Shown here: positions 1,410-43,066 of the stretch, piece after piece
How the letters are laid out: every line of letters begins with the position of its first letter
Position numbering within the stretch: position 1 is the stretch's first letter
Virus record (IMG/VR): IMGVR_UViG_3300049893_000722
Coordinates: 1-43,066 of that record
DNA length: 43,066 bases
Direction: 5' to 3' (one strand)
Origin: a virus
Position numbers and translations under genes: made by a program
The notes under the pieces: generated by a model
What the model was told of the DNA's origin: nothing
Seen by the model: the letters and a program-made list of their open reading frames with translations, nothing else
Database searches by the model: none

Positions 1410-1720
1410 ACGCAACCTATCTTCGCTGCGGTGAGTGTGGCCGTCCGGTGCAGCGTGGTTACCACTGCCAGGACTTCCACGAGGAAGCGCACGTCGAACT
1501 CAGCATGGGCGTCGAACGCGCCTACCTCTATATGGAAGACATGCTGGAGCACTACCGCGGCAAGCTGCCTCCCATCGTGGACAACGCTTACTGGCCTGGG
1601 GTAGAGACGGGCCAGGTGGTGCAGGCGCGGGAACTCTACGAGCGGTGGGGGGCGCCGCCCGAGCGTGCCATCCCCTATGACCGGCCAGCGGGGAACTCTC
1701 TCTTCGGTGGGGGAACATGA
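1406..1720 (+). CDS. Small zinc-ribbon-like protein preceding the methyltransferase
   Basis: 104 residues, ATGA-coupled on both sides. The N-terminus carries CGEC and, about ten residues later, GYHC, a short zinc-ribbon pattern. The rest is acidic and helical without a recognisable catalytic motif. Position directly before the DNA methyltransferase may be operon packing only. Confidence 0.6.
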   Translation: MNATYLRCGECGRPVQRGYHCQDFHEEAHVELSMGVERAYLYMEDMLEHYRGKLPPIVDNAYWPGVETGQVVQARELYERWGAPPERAIPYDRPAGNSLFGGGT

Positions 1721-2682
1721 ATGGCATGGCTCTTTGTGCCGGGGTGGGAGGACTCGAACTCGGACTGCACCGGGCAATCCCCGGATACCGCACCGTCCTC
1801 TGGTGCGAGTACGACCAGCGTGCGGTCGCCACACTCATCTCGAACTTCGGGAAAGGGCTGGATGAGGCTCCTGTCTGGGACGACGTTACAACCCTCGACG
1901 GCCGACGCTGGCGTGGACTCGTGGATATACTCACGGCTGGTTTCCCCTGCCAGCCGTTCTCGCAGGCCGGACTCCAGCGAGGACATGAGGACAAGCAGCA
2001 CCTCTGGCCGCACATCCTCCGGGTTGTCCGAGAGTGCGAACCCGAGTGGGTCATGGTCGAGAACGTCCCCGGCATCCTATCAACCCTCGCTCCTGACGGC
2101 AGACCAGCCGCCATCGTGGTCCGGCACGAACTGGAAGAGTTGGGTTACCGGGTTGAGGAGGGCCTATTCAGCGCGGCAGAAGTCGGGGCGCCGCACCAAC
2201 GGCTTCGATGGTTCCTTGTGGCCGACTACAACCGTAGGAGACAGCACCTCGAGCGGTGTCATGAAGTACCAAAAGACCGCGACACACCACACTGGAACGA
2301 CCCTCTCGGACGCCATGCGCCTCTGGTCCACGTCGAAGGCGATAACAGGTGGCCAGCAGTGGCTCACTCCATCAGCGAACGAGGATGCCGCGGGCACGCT
2401 GGGCGGCAAGATGCAGCGGATGCTTTCCCCCCAAGCCCAGGAGACGCCGCAGGGTGGCGACGATACCTCCGGCGATACCCCGCAGCCGCGCCGGCGGTTG
2501 AATCCAATCTTCGTGGAAGCCCTGATGGGCTGGCCGATGGGTTGGACTTGTGTCTGTGCAGCCGTCGAGAACGCTTGCGCCAGTGTGGAAACGGGGTCGT
2601 GCCAATGACCGCCGCGCTGGCATGGGAGACGCTTATGGTACGGTTTCGTGGCGGGGACTCCCGCATGAGGGTACAGACATGA
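1717..2682 (+). CDS. DNA (cytosine-5) methyltransferase, Dcm-like
   Basis: Transfers a methyl group from S-adenosylmethionine to C5 of cytosine in DNA, probably to protect phage DNA from restriction. Visible motifs in order: I CAGVGGLELGL (residues 7-17), IV GFPCQPFSQ with the catalytic Cys (78), VI ENVPG (115-119), VIII QRLRW (161-165) and X CGNGVVP (290-296). At 321 aa it has the usual phage length. The variable region between VIII and X should set specificity. A second frame (+1) is also open from 1721 to 2608, and between 2216 and 2548 it encodes another recognisable methyltransferase-type C-terminal segment (see findings). The frame containing motif X is annotated because it is continuous. 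No cognate nuclease lies beside it. Confidence 0.88.
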   Translation: MNGMALCAGVGGLELGLHRAIPGYRTVLWCEYDQRAVATLISNFGKGLDEAPVWDDVTTLDGRRWRGLVDILTAGFPCQPFSQAGLQRGHEDKQHLWPHILRVVRECEPEWVMVENVPGILSTLAPDGRPAAIVVRHELEELGYRVEEGLFSAAEVGAPHQRLRWFLVADYNRRRQHLERCHEVPKDRDTPHWNDPLGRHAPLVHVEGDNRWPAVAHSISERGCRGHAGRQDAADAFPPSPGDAAGWRRYLRRYPAAAPAVESNLRGSPDGLADGLDLCLCSRRERLRQCGNGVVPMTAALAWETLMVRFRGGDSRMRVQT

Positions 2683-3408: not shown

Positions 3409-3641
3409 ACTGCTGTGCTTGCAGTGGGTCGTGTAGCCATACTGGGCCGTGTTGGCTGTGTGAGGCTCACTCAGGCTCCACTGTTCCGACTGCCAGTGTG
3501 CGATGGGAGTTCCCTGTAGTTGACCCTTCAGACTCCTTTGTCCGACTAAAGTTGTCAGACGAAGACATCGAGCGTATCGCCCAGCGAGTCATTGAAAAAC
3601 TGGCTGAGCAATACACTTATTCTTTCTCGGTGCGCCTATGA
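3405..3641 (+). CDS. Cys-rich small protein
   Basis: 78 residues. The first 20 residues contain CCACSGSC and CWLC, six or more cysteines able to hold a metal. The second half is an amphipathic helix (DEDIERIAQRVIEKL). It is coupled by four-base overlaps to its neighbours and directly precedes the transporter. Function unknown. Confidence 0.6.
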   Translation: MNCCACSGSCSHTGPCWLCEAHSGSTVPTASVRWEFPVVDPSDSFVRLKLSDEDIERIAQRVIEKLAEQYTYSFSVRL

Positions 3642-4126
3642 CTCTCTTTTGGTGGGCGGCTTACGTTGGGTGCATCTTTGCTGCCAACCTTGCTATCAAG
3701 CACTGGGGGATTGTGCCGGTTGGGCTTGGCGTAGCAGCTCCGGCTGGCGTCTACTTCGCTGGTCTTGCGCTGACAGCGCGGGACCAGGTTAGGGAGCGCA
3801 GCGGATTTCGTGCCGTGGTGGCAGCGGTGCTCGTCGGAGCGGTTCTGTCCTGGTGGCTAGAGGATATAGGACGTATTGCCTTGGCTAGCGGAATTGCGTT
3901 TGGCATATCTGAGACTGCTGATTCGCTGGTGTACGAACCGCTGCGGAAGCGTTGGGCTACGGCTGTGCTGGTATCTGGTGCGGCAGGGCTGATTGTCGAT
4001 TCGGTGCTGTTCTTGTGGATTGCCTTTGGGTCGTTGGCGTTCATTGACGGACAGATTGTCGGCAAGGCTGTTGCTACGCTTGCAGCGGTTGGAATGCTTT
4101 CCGTAGTTAGAGAATGGCGACGGTGA
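3638..4126 (+). CDS. VUT family (YhhQ/DUF165-like) queuosine-precursor transporter
   Basis: 162-residue integral membrane protein with about five or six hydrophobic segments. Family-like features: an early AANLAIKHWGIVPVG, the Gly/Ala-rich PAGVYFAGLALTARD block, ALASGIAFGISETADS with the conserved acidic residue, and GLIVDSVLFLWIAF. In bacteria YhhQ imports preQ0/preQ1 across the inner membrane. Its stop region overlaps the DpdA start by 13 bases, so the two are translationally coupled. The likely job is raising the pool of 7-deazaguanine precursor for DpdA. Family assignment rests on pattern recognition without a search. Confidence 0.78.
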   Translation: MTLFWWAAYVGCIFAANLAIKHWGIVPVGLGVAAPAGVYFAGLALTARDQVRERSGFRAVVAAVLVGAVLSWWLEDIGRIALASGIAFGISETADSLVYEPLRKRWATAVLVSGAAGLIVDSVLFLWIAFGSLAFIDGQIVGKAVATLAAVGMLSVVREWRR

Positions 4127-4740
4127 TTTACTTGAGTGGGGCCATCTTACCAACCTGCTGCCACTCCAATCTAGGGTGGATGATAACGCAGCACATGGGC
4201 AACAGGCTCCCCGCACATGGTGTATGGGCGATGGATAACGGATGTTACTCGCAGCACAAAGAATTCTCTCTAAGTGCCTTTCTGAAGAAGGCATCACAGC
4301 TCATATCTGTACATGGAGATAGATGCCTATTCGTTGTCGCGCCGGATGTGCCGTTCAATGCTGAAGGAACTATTGAGCGATGGAGGCAGACAAGTAGTGC
4401 AGTAAAAGAATTGGGCAGGCCGACTGCCTTTGTAACCCAGGACGGGATGGGTTACGAAGACATCCCGTGGAAAGACTGTGATGCTCTATTCGTGGGAGGC
4501 TCTACTCTTTGGAAACTCGGCCACGAGAGCACCGCTATCATCCACGAAGCCAAACAGCGTGGTCACTGGGTTCACGTTGGCAGAGTGAACAGTCTGTCTC
4601 GGATGAGAGTAGCGGCATCAGCCGGGGCAGATAGCGCAGATGGAACGTACTTGAAGTATGGACCAGACATCAACTGGCCCAAACTGAAGGGGTGGCTCGA
4701 CACGATGAACAGCAACCCGGTGATGAGGCTAACTGGGTGA
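4114..4740 (+). CDS. dpdA: DpdA-like DNA-guanine transglycosylase (7-deazaguanine insertion into DNA)
   Basis: 208 residues. DpdA proteins are relatives of tRNA-guanine transglycosylase that exchange guanine in DNA for a 7-deazaguanine such as preQ0. Matching elements along the barrel: MDNGCYS with Asp41 in the place of the TGT DSGGFQ aspartate, APDVPF (76-81), FVTQDG (106-111), LFVGGS (125-130) and GADSADGT, with Asp173/Asp176 in the usual nucleophile region. The CxCxxC zinc site of bacterial TGT is absent, and the protein is short compared with canonical TGT. Overlap with the transporter gene upstream and, through GTGA, with a nuclease-like gene downstream supports one functional unit. Confidence 0.82.
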   Translation: MATVIYLSGAILPTCCHSNLGWMITQHMGNRLPAHGVWAMDNGCYSQHKEFSLSAFLKKASQLISVHGDRCLFVVAPDVPFNAEGTIERWRQTSSAVKELGRPTAFVTQDGMGYEDIPWKDCDALFVGGSTLWKLGHESTAIIHEAKQRGHWVHVGRVNSLSRMRVAASAGADSADGTYLKYGPDINWPKLKGWLDTMNSNPVMRLTG

Positions 4741-5066
4741 CCCCGGTCACGTCGAAGGCCAACAAGGCCAGGGGCAAGGCAGACGAGCGCGACGTGGCTG
4801 CGCTGCTGGGTGGCAAGCGTCACCCGGCTGACGTTGGCGGGCCGGAGGATGTCTACGTCGAGTCTCTGGGCCTCAGTGTGCAGGTGAAGGGCAGGGCGGC
4901 GGTGCCGGACTACCTGCGGGATGGCATGGAGTCAGCGAGGGTAGCGGCAGCGGCGCGTACAGGGTGGACCGGCGTGCTGGTGCTGGTGGACCGGAGCGGC
5001 ACACGGCTGAGGCGGTACGTCGTCATGGACCTGGAGGACTTCAGGGCAAGGGAGGGGATTCAATGA
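4737..5066 (+). CDS. PD-(D/E)XK nuclease-like protein (Holliday-junction resolvase type)
   Basis: 109 residues from a GTG overlapping the DpdA stop (GTGA). The N-terminal helix ADERDVAALLGG, then PEDVYVE and LSVQVKGR, follow the E...D...xVK layout of small PD-(D/E)XK nucleases, with Gln in place of the second acidic residue. The second half (helix, then GVLVLVDRSG and YVVMDLEDF strands) also fits that fold. It could process replication or recombination intermediates, or be linked to the modification genes beside it. Identity is a pattern-level inference. An upstream in-frame ATG at 4692 is less likely. Confidence 0.5.
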   Translation: MTPVTSKANKARGKADERDVAALLGGKRHPADVGGPEDVYVESLGLSVQVKGRAAVPDYLRDGMESARVAAAARTGWTGVLVLVDRSGTRLRRYVVMDLEDFRAREGIQ

Positions 5067-14054: not shown

Positions 14055-14648
14055 CTACTGCACCCGCAGTCCGAGGCGACTCCTGCTCTGGCATCGCCCG
14101 CACGTTCCGTCAGCAGGCGACCGCTGACACGAAACGGTGTGGCCCAGCGGCAAGCCACGCGCAGTAGCTTCGGCCACTACCGCTTCCATGCTTGTGTTCC
14201 ACCCCTCCAACGGGAAGTGAATCAAAGGCCAGGGCAGCCCCTCTTTCCGGTTCTCTTTAGCTCCACCCGAATACAGGACCGTCTTCAACGCTCCCATCCA
14301 CTCTTGCGAGTTGAGGTCTGGCTTCAGCCCGGAGTAGATGACAGCCGCATCGTTCTTCAATGCCCACGACCAGCCAACGCAGAACAGGTGTAGCTGGTTC
14401 AGCGGCAGCACGAGAAACCCATACTTGTTTTCCACCCAGAAGTCCCACATGACTTCGGCCTTGAGTTCGACGTGTTCCAGCCCAAGGATGCGGGCAGACT
14501 CCTGGGCCGCCTTAGCGGCATGGTCACTGCGCTTGTCACGGATATGCAGACTGATGAACTCCCAGCCAGCATCCCCGTGGTCGCGTAGCATCTGGTCGCC
14601 GGCCAGCAGGCTATCGAGTCCACCGCTGTTGAGAAGTACCGCTTTCAA
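14055..14648 (-). CDS. queC: QueC-like 7-cyano-7-deazaguanine synthase (PP-loop ATPase)
   Basis: 197 residues. QueC converts 7-carboxy-7-deazaguanine to preQ0 with ATP and ammonia. The N-terminus KAVLLNSGGLDSLLAG holds the PP-loop SGGLDS (8-13). The C-terminus HTVSCQR...TCGRCQSR (Cys174, 183, 186) corresponds to the QueC zinc site, but the last of the usual four cysteines is absent. The start codon is TTG, overlapping the stop of the fibre gene upstream (TTGA). It sits between tail genes, far from the DpdA/transporter pair with which it would make and use preQ0. Other PP-loop relatives are an alternative. Confidence 0.78.
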   Translation of the reverse strand: MKAVLLNSGGLDSLLAGDQMLRDHGDAGWEFISLHIRDKRSDHAAKAAQESARILGLEHVELKAEVMWDFWVENKYGFLVLPLNQLHLFCVGWSWALKNDAAVIYSGLKPDLNSQEWMGALKTVLYSGGAKENRKEGLPWPLIHFPLEGWNTSMEAVVAEATARGLPLGHTVSCQRSPADGTCGRCQSRSRLGLRVQ

Positions 14649-40816: not shown

Positions 40817-43066
40817 ATGGCGCTCGCTGACGACGTTCTCCGCGCCGTAGAAGCGCAGGAACTGGGACGCGAGGGGGCAGACGAGCTTCGGCTTGTCTGC
40901 CCCAGCCACCAGGACACTGCGGACTCCCCGAATGCCACGTACAACCCGAGAAAGCAGGTCTGGACGTGCATGTCATGTGGGGCTGGAGGTGGGTATCGAG
41001 ACCTCGCGAAACTCCTGGGCATCCGGGCATCCAAGCAGCCGGCCGGAACCATCGTCACCACGTACCCCTACGTCGATGAACAGGGAGCATTGCTCTTTGA
41101 AGTGGTCCGCATGGACCCCAAGGACTTCCGCCAGCGTCGCCGCTCACCGGCCGGCCGCTGGATATGGAACCTCGAAGGCACCAGGAAGGTACTCTACAGG
41201 TTGCCGCGAGTGCTGGCAGCCGATGAGGTGTGGATTGTCGAAGGGGAGAAGGACGTTCACACCGCGGAAGCGTGGGGACTGACCGCTACCTGCAATCCGG
41301 GCGGTGCCGCCAAGGGACCGGGCAAGTGGCTCACCTCTTTCAGCGACACGCTGAAGGGCAAGCGACTCTACATAATTCCAGATGCAGACAAGGACGGGGA
41401 GGACCACGCGGTTACCGTGGCGAACTCCGTATCTCCGCACGCCAGGGAGGTGCGGGTAGTGCGACTGCCCGGCCTCGACAAGAAGGGCGACCTTACGGAT
41501 TGGGCCGTAGGACGCTCTGTAGAGGCGCTGTTGGCACTGAAGGACGCTGCCCCGATATGGCAGCCGACCGCGCCCCCGGAAGAGGAGCCAGCGGTCTTAG
41601 AGTTTCCGCTCACCGACGCCGGCAACGCCGAGTTGTTTGCCGAGAGATACGGCGACCGGGTGCGGTACGACTGGCAGCGGAACCGGTGGCTGACATGGCA
41701 GGGGCACCGCTGGGGAGTGGACAAGGACGGCTCGTTGTACAAGTGGGCCATCGAGTCGGCCCGGCATCGGCGGGCCGAGGCAGAGAAGATTGAGAGCTCA
41801 AGCCAGAGGGAGAAGGCGCTCGGATTCGCAAGAGGCAGCGAGAACGCCGGCCGGGTGGAGAACTGCTTGAAGCTGGCGCGGGCCGTGGACCCGGTAGCCG
41901 ACTCGGGGCTGGGGTGGGATGAGCAGCCGTGGCTGCTGGCCTGCGAGAACGGCGTCATCAACCTGGCGACCGGTGAGTTAGAGAAGGGGAGACCGGAGCA
42001 GCGGTTGACGCAGAGCGTGGGCTATGCCTATGACCCAAGGGCGACCGCACCAGTGTGGGAGGGGTTCGTAGCGGACCTGTTCCCGGACAATCCTGAGTTG
42101 GTGCCGTGGTTCCAGAAGGTGCTGGGATACACGCTGACCGGAAGCGTAAGGGAGCAAGTGGTATTTCTGTTGCATGGCCGGGGAGCCAACGGGAAGTCTA
42201 CCTTCCTCGATGTTCTTACTGCGGTCATGGGGGAGTACTCCGGAACTATAGCGTTCCGAACGATTGAACAGGGTTACGACAAGAGTATCCCATCAGACAT
42301 GGCTGCGCTAGTGGGGAAGCGTGCGGTCTACGCCAGTGAGACGAAGGAGGGGAGCGTCCTCAACGAAGCCAGGGTGAAGAGCCTGTCAGGTGGGGACAGA
42401 ATCACGGCCCGATTCCTGAGGGAGAACGAGTTCTCCTTCAGTCCGGTCCTGAAACTGTTCATCGCGGTGAACCACCGGCCGACCATCAAGGATGACAGCG
42501 AGGGGATGTGGCGCCGGATACGGCTGGTGCCGTTCAATGCCACGTTCGACTCAGCGCGGCGTGACCTGGAGATGAAAGGCAAGCTGCTGCAAGAGTTGCC
42601 GGGCATCCTGCGGTGGATGGTTGCCGGCGCCCTGCGATACCGGGAGGAGGGGCTTGGCTGTCCGGCCGTGGTAGCGGTGGCGACCGCGGACTACCGGGAG
42701 CAGAGCGACCCGATGGCCGACTGGTTGGCCGCTTGCACAATTGCAAAAGACGATACCCGAACCAAGGGTTCCAGCCTTTATCGAAGCTACAAAACGTGGG
42801 CTGAGGAGCAAGGTTTATCACAGCGCGAAACCCTCTCGGTGAAGCTGTTCGGAAGGCGGTTAGGGGAGGATTGGAACCGGGTAAAAGTGGATGGAATCGT
42901 CTACTACCGCAACATTGTGTTGCGAAGGGAGGATTCGGACCCTCAATCCTCCCTTCCGGACCAGGACCCGCAGATTCAAGAGGACCCCGAAAAGGGAGGA
43001 AGGGAGGGAGGGAGGATTATCTACGGTTCCCCCCAGCATTTCGGGGGACGTAGGGAGGAAGGGAGG
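40817..43066 (+). CDS. Primase-helicase, D5-like (CHC2 zinc finger, TOPRIM, SF3 helicase)
   Basis: 750 codons in the window, open at the right edge, and completed by 120-335 on the circle to 821 aa. Domains: CHC2-type zinc finger (Cys28, His31, Cys51, Cys54); TOPRIM with EGEKD (142-146) and DADKDG (189-194), which synthesises primers; a linker; a D5-N-like region (about 270-430) with LLACENGVINLATGEL; and an SF3 helicase with Walker A GRGANGKS (454-461), Walker B-like AVYASETKEG, sensor-type LKLFIAVNHRP and the arginine pair MWRRI. The C-terminal winged-helix-like region (about 640-690) precedes the low-complexity zinc tail. No DNA polymerase is seen, so host polymerase is presumably recruited. 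Confidence 0.9.
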   Translation, partial: MALADDVLRAVEAQELGREGADELRLVCPSHQDTADSPNATYNPRKQVWTCMSCGAGGGYRDLAKLLGIRASKQPAGTIVTTYPYVDEQGALLFEVVRMDPKDFRQRRRSPAGRWIWNLEGTRKVLYRLPRVLAADEVWIVEGEKDVHTAEAWGLTATCNPGGAAKGPGKWLTSFSDTLKGKRLYIIPDADKDGEDHAVTVANSVSPHAREVRVVRLPGLDKKGDLTDWAVGRSVEALLALKDAAPIWQPTAPPEEEPAVLEFPLTDAGNAELFAERYGDRVRYDWQRNRWLTWQGHRWGVDKDGSLYKWAIESARHRRAEAEKIESSSQREKALGFARGSENAGRVENCLKLARAVDPVADSGLGWDEQPWLLACENGVINLATGELEKGRPEQRLTQSVGYAYDPRATAPVWEGFVADLFPDNPELVPWFQKVLGYTLTGSVREQVVFLLHGRGANGKSTFLDVLTAVMGEYSGTIAFRTIEQGYDKSIPSDMAALVGKRAVYASETKEGSVLNEARVKSLSGGDRITARFLRENEFSFSPVLKLFIAVNHRPTIKDDSEGMWRRIRLVPFNATFDSARRDLEMKGKLLQELPGILRWMVAGALRYREEGLGCPAVVAVATADYREQSDPMADWLAACTIAKDDTRTKGSSLYRSYKTWAEEQGLSQRETLSVKLFGRRLGEDWNRVKVDGIVYYRNIVLRREDSDPQSSLPDQDPQIQEDPEKGGREGGRIIYGSPQHFGGRREEGR
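42948..43066. repeat. Right copy of 119-bp terminal direct repeat
   Basis: Second copy of bases 1-119, inside the open primase-helicase frame. Removing one copy gives a unit of 42,947 bp in which the primase-helicase gene is intact. Confidence 0.85.

Follow-up and report, generated by a model that had tools for sequence, protein, structure and literature searches.

A predicted queuosine-precursor importer and a compact DpdA-like transglycosylase encoded as an overlapping gene pair in a viral genome

Overlapping genes for a VUT/QPTR-family membrane protein and a DpdA-like transglycosylase are found in the viral record IMGVR_UViG_3300049893_000722, and the same pair is carried by hundreds of other viruses and by some plasmids. 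We consider it probable that the two proteins make up a two-gene salvage unit, in which a 7-deazaguanine is imported by one and exchanged into DNA by the other.

The gene pair and its genome

The window analysed here, the whole 43,066 bases of the IMG/VR record, encodes a terminase large subunit, a major head protein, a GH25 endolysin, a primase and a C5-cytosine methyltransferase. Because a near-identical 119-base repeat, with one mismatch, stands at both ends (positions 1-119 and 42948-43066), the genome is probably complete and circularly permuted, although the record is listed as linear. The pair lies as follows, in window coordinates:

3638-4126, plus strand: VUT/QPTR (COG1738, YhhQ-family) membrane protein of 162 residues, a predicted queuosine-precursor importer, assigned from PF02592, phrog_4899, hydropathy and its TGT-like neighbours
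4114-4740, plus strand: DpdA-like compact transglycosylase of 208 residues (phrog_15826), a single (β/α)8 barrel with the zinc domain absent, assigned from a structure model and profile links
4114-4126, plus strand: overlap of the two frames over 13 bases, read from the sequence

These are exactly the coordinates given in the first-pass annotation, which had described a VUT gene overlapping a DpdA-like gene by 13 bases. Judged from the sequence, the overlap suggests that the translation of the two frames may be coupled, but taken alone it is weak evidence, because small overlaps, of about 4 bases, are found at other gene boundaries of the cluster too: the start of the VUT gene shares ATGA (3638-3641) with the end of the preceding frame, and the end of the enzyme gene shares GTGA (4737-4740) with the next gene. 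It is the conserved pairing in other genomes, described below, that places the link between importer and enzyme above chance. The gene that follows (4737-5066, plus strand) has a weak match to the RusA-like resolvase phrog_244 (E = 3e-4), and the methyltransferase (321 residues; 1717-2682, plus strand), upstream of the pair, is a second potential DNA-protection gene. Searches found no preQ1 riboswitch or any other Rfam match within the window and no sigma-70-like promoter near the pair, and the pair matches no defence system in PADLOC.

The earlier assignment of the first gene to the VUT/YhhQ family is borne out by the Pfam profile Vut_1 (PF02592), which the 162-residue protein matches with 42.6 bits (E = 1.1e-10), above the curated cut-off of 27.2 bits, over profile positions 65-130 of 152. 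It also matches phrog_4899 (5e-31), and annotated phage VUT/DUF165 proteins align along its length at 30-47% identity. Its hydropathy profile has five strong peaks and a possible sixth segment near residues 77-95, six being the family criterion. A search by sequence for a solved structure found none for this protein or for the enzyme. E. coli YhhQ, a member of the VUT/QPTR family, is involved in the salvage of preQ0 and preQ1, and other members take queuine (PMC5372724; PMC10723273); by analogy, the viral protein probably imports a queuosine-type precursor.

A compact barrel with TGT-type motifs

The 208-residue enzyme has no significant match in Pfam or NCBIfam. It matches phrog_15826 (4.5e-53), a PHROG of unknown function, and its relatives in SEA-PHAGES carry the annotation 'DpdA-like tRNA-guanine transglycosylase'. 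With 68 viral-contig relatives added to the protein as input, AlphaFold gave a model with a mean pLDDT of 94.3 and a pTM of 0.90, in which eight strands form a complete barrel. The top PDB match of this model in Foldseek is TGT and, after re-alignment with VIA-align, the best 50 rows are all TGTs (Z about 15.3-15.6, rmsd 2.8-3.4 Å, 196-200 residues), led by one with a Z of 15.6 and an rmsd of 2.8 Å over 197 residues and including the preQ0-bound TGT 2pwv. Near the top of the structure matches in BFVD are phage proteins named queuine tRNA-ribosyltransferase.

Profile comparisons place the family closer to phage DpdA than to canonical TGT. In the six frames of the record there is no match to PF01702, the canonical TGT profile, and the 208-residue protein has none of the cysteines of the zinc-binding CxCx2C...H that follows the nucleophile in TGT, the zinc domain being missing because the chain stops about 32 residues past D176. 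The enzyme family is linked to Seuratvirus DpdA directly with moderate strength (profile-profile E = 4e-4) and, through a second VUT-linked subfamily (A5), with E-values of 1e-6 and 1.3e-8; for the relation between A5 and DpdA1 we used non-iterated E-values only, because the iterated profiles of the two merge. With hhalign, the enzyme family gave no significant match to a two-sequence TGT profile, a test that DpdA1 also fails. Because of the profile links to phage DpdA, the lack of a PF01702 match and the missing zinc domain, we call the enzyme DpdA-like rather than a TGT of the canonical kind.

The counterparts of the TGT active-site residues are given below, with conservation counted over 69 sequences of the enzyme family; the correspondence comes from motif spacing and profile alignment, not from superposed coordinates, and the TGT numbers are those of Z. 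mobilis:

4234-4248, plus strand: DNGCY (D41-Y45), counterpart of TGT DSGGF/Y (D102...Y106); D41 in 69/69, F/Y45 in 68/69
4345-4347, plus strand: codon of D78, counterpart of TGT D156 (base recognition); 69/69
4438-4440, plus strand: codon of Q109, counterpart of TGT Q203; 69/69
4480-4500, plus strand: D123-xxx-V-G128-G129, counterpart of TGT DGYAVGG (G230); G129 in 69/69, G128 in 67/69
4624-4641, plus strand: G171-x-D-S-x-D176, counterpart of TGT GIDMFD; D176 in 69/69, D173 in 60/69

In E. coli TGT the equivalents are D89-S-G-G-F93 for D41-N-G-C-Y45, D143 for D78, Q187 for Q109, D208-x3-V-G213-G214 for D123-x3-V-G128-G129 and G259-I-D-M-F-D264 for G171-x-D-S-x-D176, and the spacing from D123 to G129 is identical to that from D208 to G214. 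The offsets between the E. coli and Z. mobilis numbering were checked on the alignment; for D102, Y106, D156, Q203, G230 and D280 we take the residue roles to be those familiar from the TGT literature. D176 is the candidate counterpart of the TGT nucleophile D280, because it is invariant and D173 is not, and D176 is likely, from this conservation, to be the catalytic nucleophile of the enzyme. Of the residues that the first-pass annotation had singled out for checking, Asp41 and Asp173/Asp176, it is thus D176 and not D173 that is the nucleophile candidate.

The same annotation had called the second gene DpdA-like, and the TGT barrel predicted by the model, together with TGT-like motifs at the right spacing, upholds that identity. 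Both gene assignments hold up under the checks proposed with it: structure prediction returned the TGT barrel, and in the HMM searches the VUT profile was matched; the enzyme had no match in Pfam, NCBIfam or PF01702 and was connected to DpdA by profile-profile comparison. As model and sequence present it, the 208-residue protein is a minimal barrel of the DpdA/TGT type that retains the positions for base binding and for the nucleophile. It shares with Seuratvirus DpdA1 (phiG7 type), to which it is homologous by profile, the order of the TGT-type motifs (DSG, D, GG, HxFG, SxDSS), whereas DpdA1 is about 307-317 residues long, has a C-terminal extension and is encoded with preQ0-pathway genes and no importer. 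With cellular TGTs it shares the barrel fold and the positions listed above, and it differs from them in length, TGT having about 380 residues and carrying the zinc site C-x-C-x2-C...H.

The invariance of the base-binding and nucleophile positions across the 69 sequences also bears on whether the enzyme still exchanges bases. A protein that has become DNA-binding, base-excising or a decoy, with VUT retained for host metabolism, seems very improbable in view of this invariance and of the VUT or QueE/QueC neighbours, which point to the use of 7-deazaguanines; in its favour, the family has members in phages already equipped with a DpdA and preQ0 genes, namely phiG7 (L008 3884-4476) and R29Z (L006 3929-4513), where the member is a second, compact DpdA-like gene, and the phiG7 copy is split into two frames. 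Since these relatives accompany a separate DpdA in phages of the Queuovirinae, some of them may have another role.

Pairing across viruses and plasmids

Scanned against viral contigs, the alignment of the enzyme family matched at least 570 coding stretches and the single protein matched none; for the importer a tighter alignment was used, the full VUT alignment being too variable. Starting from the enzyme only, a VUT gene is adjacent in 43 of 62 dereplicated clusters (VUT first in 36, enzyme first in 7) and, starting from VUT only, a TGT-like gene lies at most 1.5 kb away in 57 of 60 dereplicated viral clusters. These 57 partners fall into three families, each of which is found in both gene orders: 25 belong to the family of the enzyme described here, 19 to the Pam5/N3_2 family, seen in Pseudanabaena phage Pam5 and Rhizobium phage N3_2, and 13 to that of Sinorhizobium phage phiLM21, whose enzyme type is linked to DpdA by profile (E = 1.4e-6). 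Among the neighbours at 122 dereplicated loci, VUT is the most frequent family (102 loci), followed among biological families by a DNA methylase (16), and the enzyme tree implies at least 17 changes in VUT presence. The two genes are functionally coupled, and the support for this link goes far beyond what had been claimed for it from the single locus.

The closest genomic relatives of the enzyme come from Actinomycetota and Chloroflexota. Genome contigs with the pair are found in Actinomycetota, Chloroflexia and Rhizobium, and relatives of the enzyme in Paraburkholderia and Caballeronia occur without VUT. Two Streptomyces plasmids (NZ_CP122459 and NZ_CP109056) bear VUT with this enzyme, and a third (NZ_CP046906) bears VUT with the phiLM21 type. 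In the plasmid pairs of VUT and a TGT-like gene (L186 3470-4621, L187 3417-4585, L190 2968-4361) the enzyme is annotated as 'hypothetical protein'. MT837598.1 (L016), a VUT match labelled 'Bacteriophage sp.', has genes for glutamine synthetase adenylyltransferase, ferrochelatase, GrpE and DnaK; it looks like a bacterial contig and was left out of the counts as phage evidence.

In actinobacteriophages, genes of the same family (Aoka 40, StevieRay 54, Bhagsy 55 and ReqiPine5 gp03) have about 40% identity to the enzyme and a VUT gene adjacent or one gene away, but they are annotated by similarity only, and their VUT partner is named 'membrane protein' or 'hypothetical'. In Rhodococcus phage ReqiPine5 (L003 4655-5572), the next gene after the pair is PAPS-reductase-like. 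Close to the compact DpdA of Arthrobacter phage Sonali lie a QueC-like gene (88) and another TGT-like gene (87).

A previous survey distinguished a group 3 of 'DpdA-only' phages, some with YhhQ, and reported that YhhQ did not correlate with any phage group (Hutinet et al., 2019; PMC6884629). The genome described here resembles this group in having a DpdA-type gene without FolE, QueD and QueE, with possible preQ0 import by a YhhQ homologue, and differs in that viral VUT in our set almost always adjoins a TGT-like gene and in that the 208-residue family is distinct from DpdA1 in sequence. Group 3 is defined by the lack of FolE, QueD, QueE and QueC; the first three are absent here and a divergent QueC-like gene is present.

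Import, synthesis and the proposed function

Genes for synthesis of the base tend to be found where the importer is not. Of the 19 clusters that lack VUT, 6 have QueE or QueC next to the enzyme, against 0 of the 43 that contain VUT (Fisher p = 4e-4), a difference that is not significant when shared ancestry is allowed for, because the independent pairs are too few and the test lacks power. The VUT-less cases comprise L036 with both QueE and QueC, L047, L086 and L089 with QueE, which in L047 directly abuts the enzyme gene, and L072 and L090 with QueC; FolE and QueD lie nearby in the VUT-less R29Z and phiG7. When 50 whole records were compared, among them 38 with an adjacent pair and 10 with the enzyme but no VUT anywhere, QueD was present in none of the 38 and two of the 10, and QueC in one of the 38 and three of the 10. 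In L105, VUT sits within a FolE-QueD-QueC cluster beside a DpdA1-type gene, and we therefore regard the exclusion as a tendency and not a law.

In the record itself, a six-frame search found no FolE, QueD or radical-SAM (QueE-type) gene, which confirms the first-pass annotation on each of the genes it had named (folE, queD and queE). The broader notion that preQ0-type genes are absent from the genome holds for these three and not beyond them, because a QueC-like gene had been missed:

14055-14648, minus strand: divergent QueC-like protein of 197 residues, a possible accessory, matching Pfam QueC (PF06508) with 27.4 bits (cut-off 22 bits) and the QueC-like phrog_1550

This protein keeps SGGLDS, but its zinc motif reads C(x)8CGxCxxR in place of C(x)8CxxCxxC, the fourth cysteine being lost, and because of this incomplete motif we class it as QueC-like only, although its Pfam score is above the cut-off. 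A QatC-type variant, C(x)19CGxCxxRR, has been described, and QatC makes no preQ0 (PMC13329287). Its C-terminus is weakly similar to Cap9 of CBASS, and an AlphaFold run with no relatives as input gave an unusable model (pLDDT 41.5).

The gene raises the question of a mixed, three-gene pathway, in which VUT or the host would supply an earlier base (e.g., CDG) and the QueC-like protein would turn this into ADG or preQ0 for insertion. Its Pfam score, and the occurrence of QueC-like or QueE genes next to enzymes of this type in L036, L047, L072, L086, L089, L090 and Sonali, are consistent with such a route, to which we nevertheless attach a low probability: the gene lies 9 kb off, on the opposite strand and among late structural genes, its product shares the lost fourth cysteine with QatC, no relative of it was found among phages or viral contigs, and QueC is present in just the one of the 38 VUT-bearing relatives.

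The other matter to be weighed is the nucleic acid acted upon. In bacteria such as Chlamydia and Bartonella, QPTR/YhhQ and TGT form a two-gene salvage route for tRNA (PMC10723273), which resembles the pair described here in placing an importer and a base-exchange enzyme where a synthesis pathway would otherwise stand, but which is cellular and tRNA-acting, whereas the present pair is found on phages and plasmids, its most likely target being DNA. Because the bacterial pairs act on tRNA, and because the enzyme has the fold of TGT, we retain as an alternative that imported preQ1 or queuine is inserted into the tRNA of the infected cell, tuning translation. This appears unlikely, given that the enzyme ends soon after the nucleophile, without the zinc domain of tRNA-acting TGTs, that its closest characterised profile is phage DpdA, that it is found mainly on phages, and also on plasmids, and that the 43,066-base window holds no tRNA genes.

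We thus favour insertion into DNA, by a mechanism drawn from YhhQ, TGT and DpdA. The VUT protein would raise the pool of free 7-deazaguanine base in the infected cell by import from the medium, the base being most likely preQ0, with preQ1 or queuine possible. The enzyme would cleave the N-glycosidic bond of selected guanines in the phage DNA through a covalent intermediate on D176 and put the imported base in the place of guanine, and DNA modified in this way would be hidden from restriction enzymes. The unit would then substitute for the FolE-QueD-QueE-QueC pathway that other phages carry on board. In favour of this mechanism, dpdA of phage CAjan is required for dPreQ0 in DNA, all of which is lost without it; against it, no modified bases were found in mycobacteriophage Orion, which has DpdA only, in M. 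smegmatis (PMC6884629).

A wider claim, towards which we lean less than away but which we find worth stating, is that the pair represents a widespread, modular 'import and insert' unit for disguising DNA on phages and plasmids, assembled repeatedly from three enzyme subfamilies and replacing a whole biosynthesis, with some lineages inserting a base other than preQ0 (e.g., queuine or preQ1). What may be new here, part of it perhaps already in print, is the near-obligate adjacency, the repeated assembly from three subfamilies, the tendency of importer and synthesis genes to replace each other, the occurrence on plasmids and the zinc-less barrel with its putative D176 nucleophile.

The 2019 survey left open which base is used, and from where, in phages with DpdA-type genes but no preQ0 genes (PMC6884629), and the near-fixed pairing with an importer, together with the complementary pattern of QueE and QueC, offers a testable answer as to the source of the base in DpdA-only phages. 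StevieRay and Bhagsy, two Mycobacterium phages with the pair, can be grown on M. smegmatis and, since this host is without a preQ0 pathway (PMC6884629), the supply of base in the medium should switch the modification of their DNA on and off. A single-domain, zinc-less transglycosylase of 208 residues would, moreover, offer a handy small tool with which to introduce modified bases into DNA.
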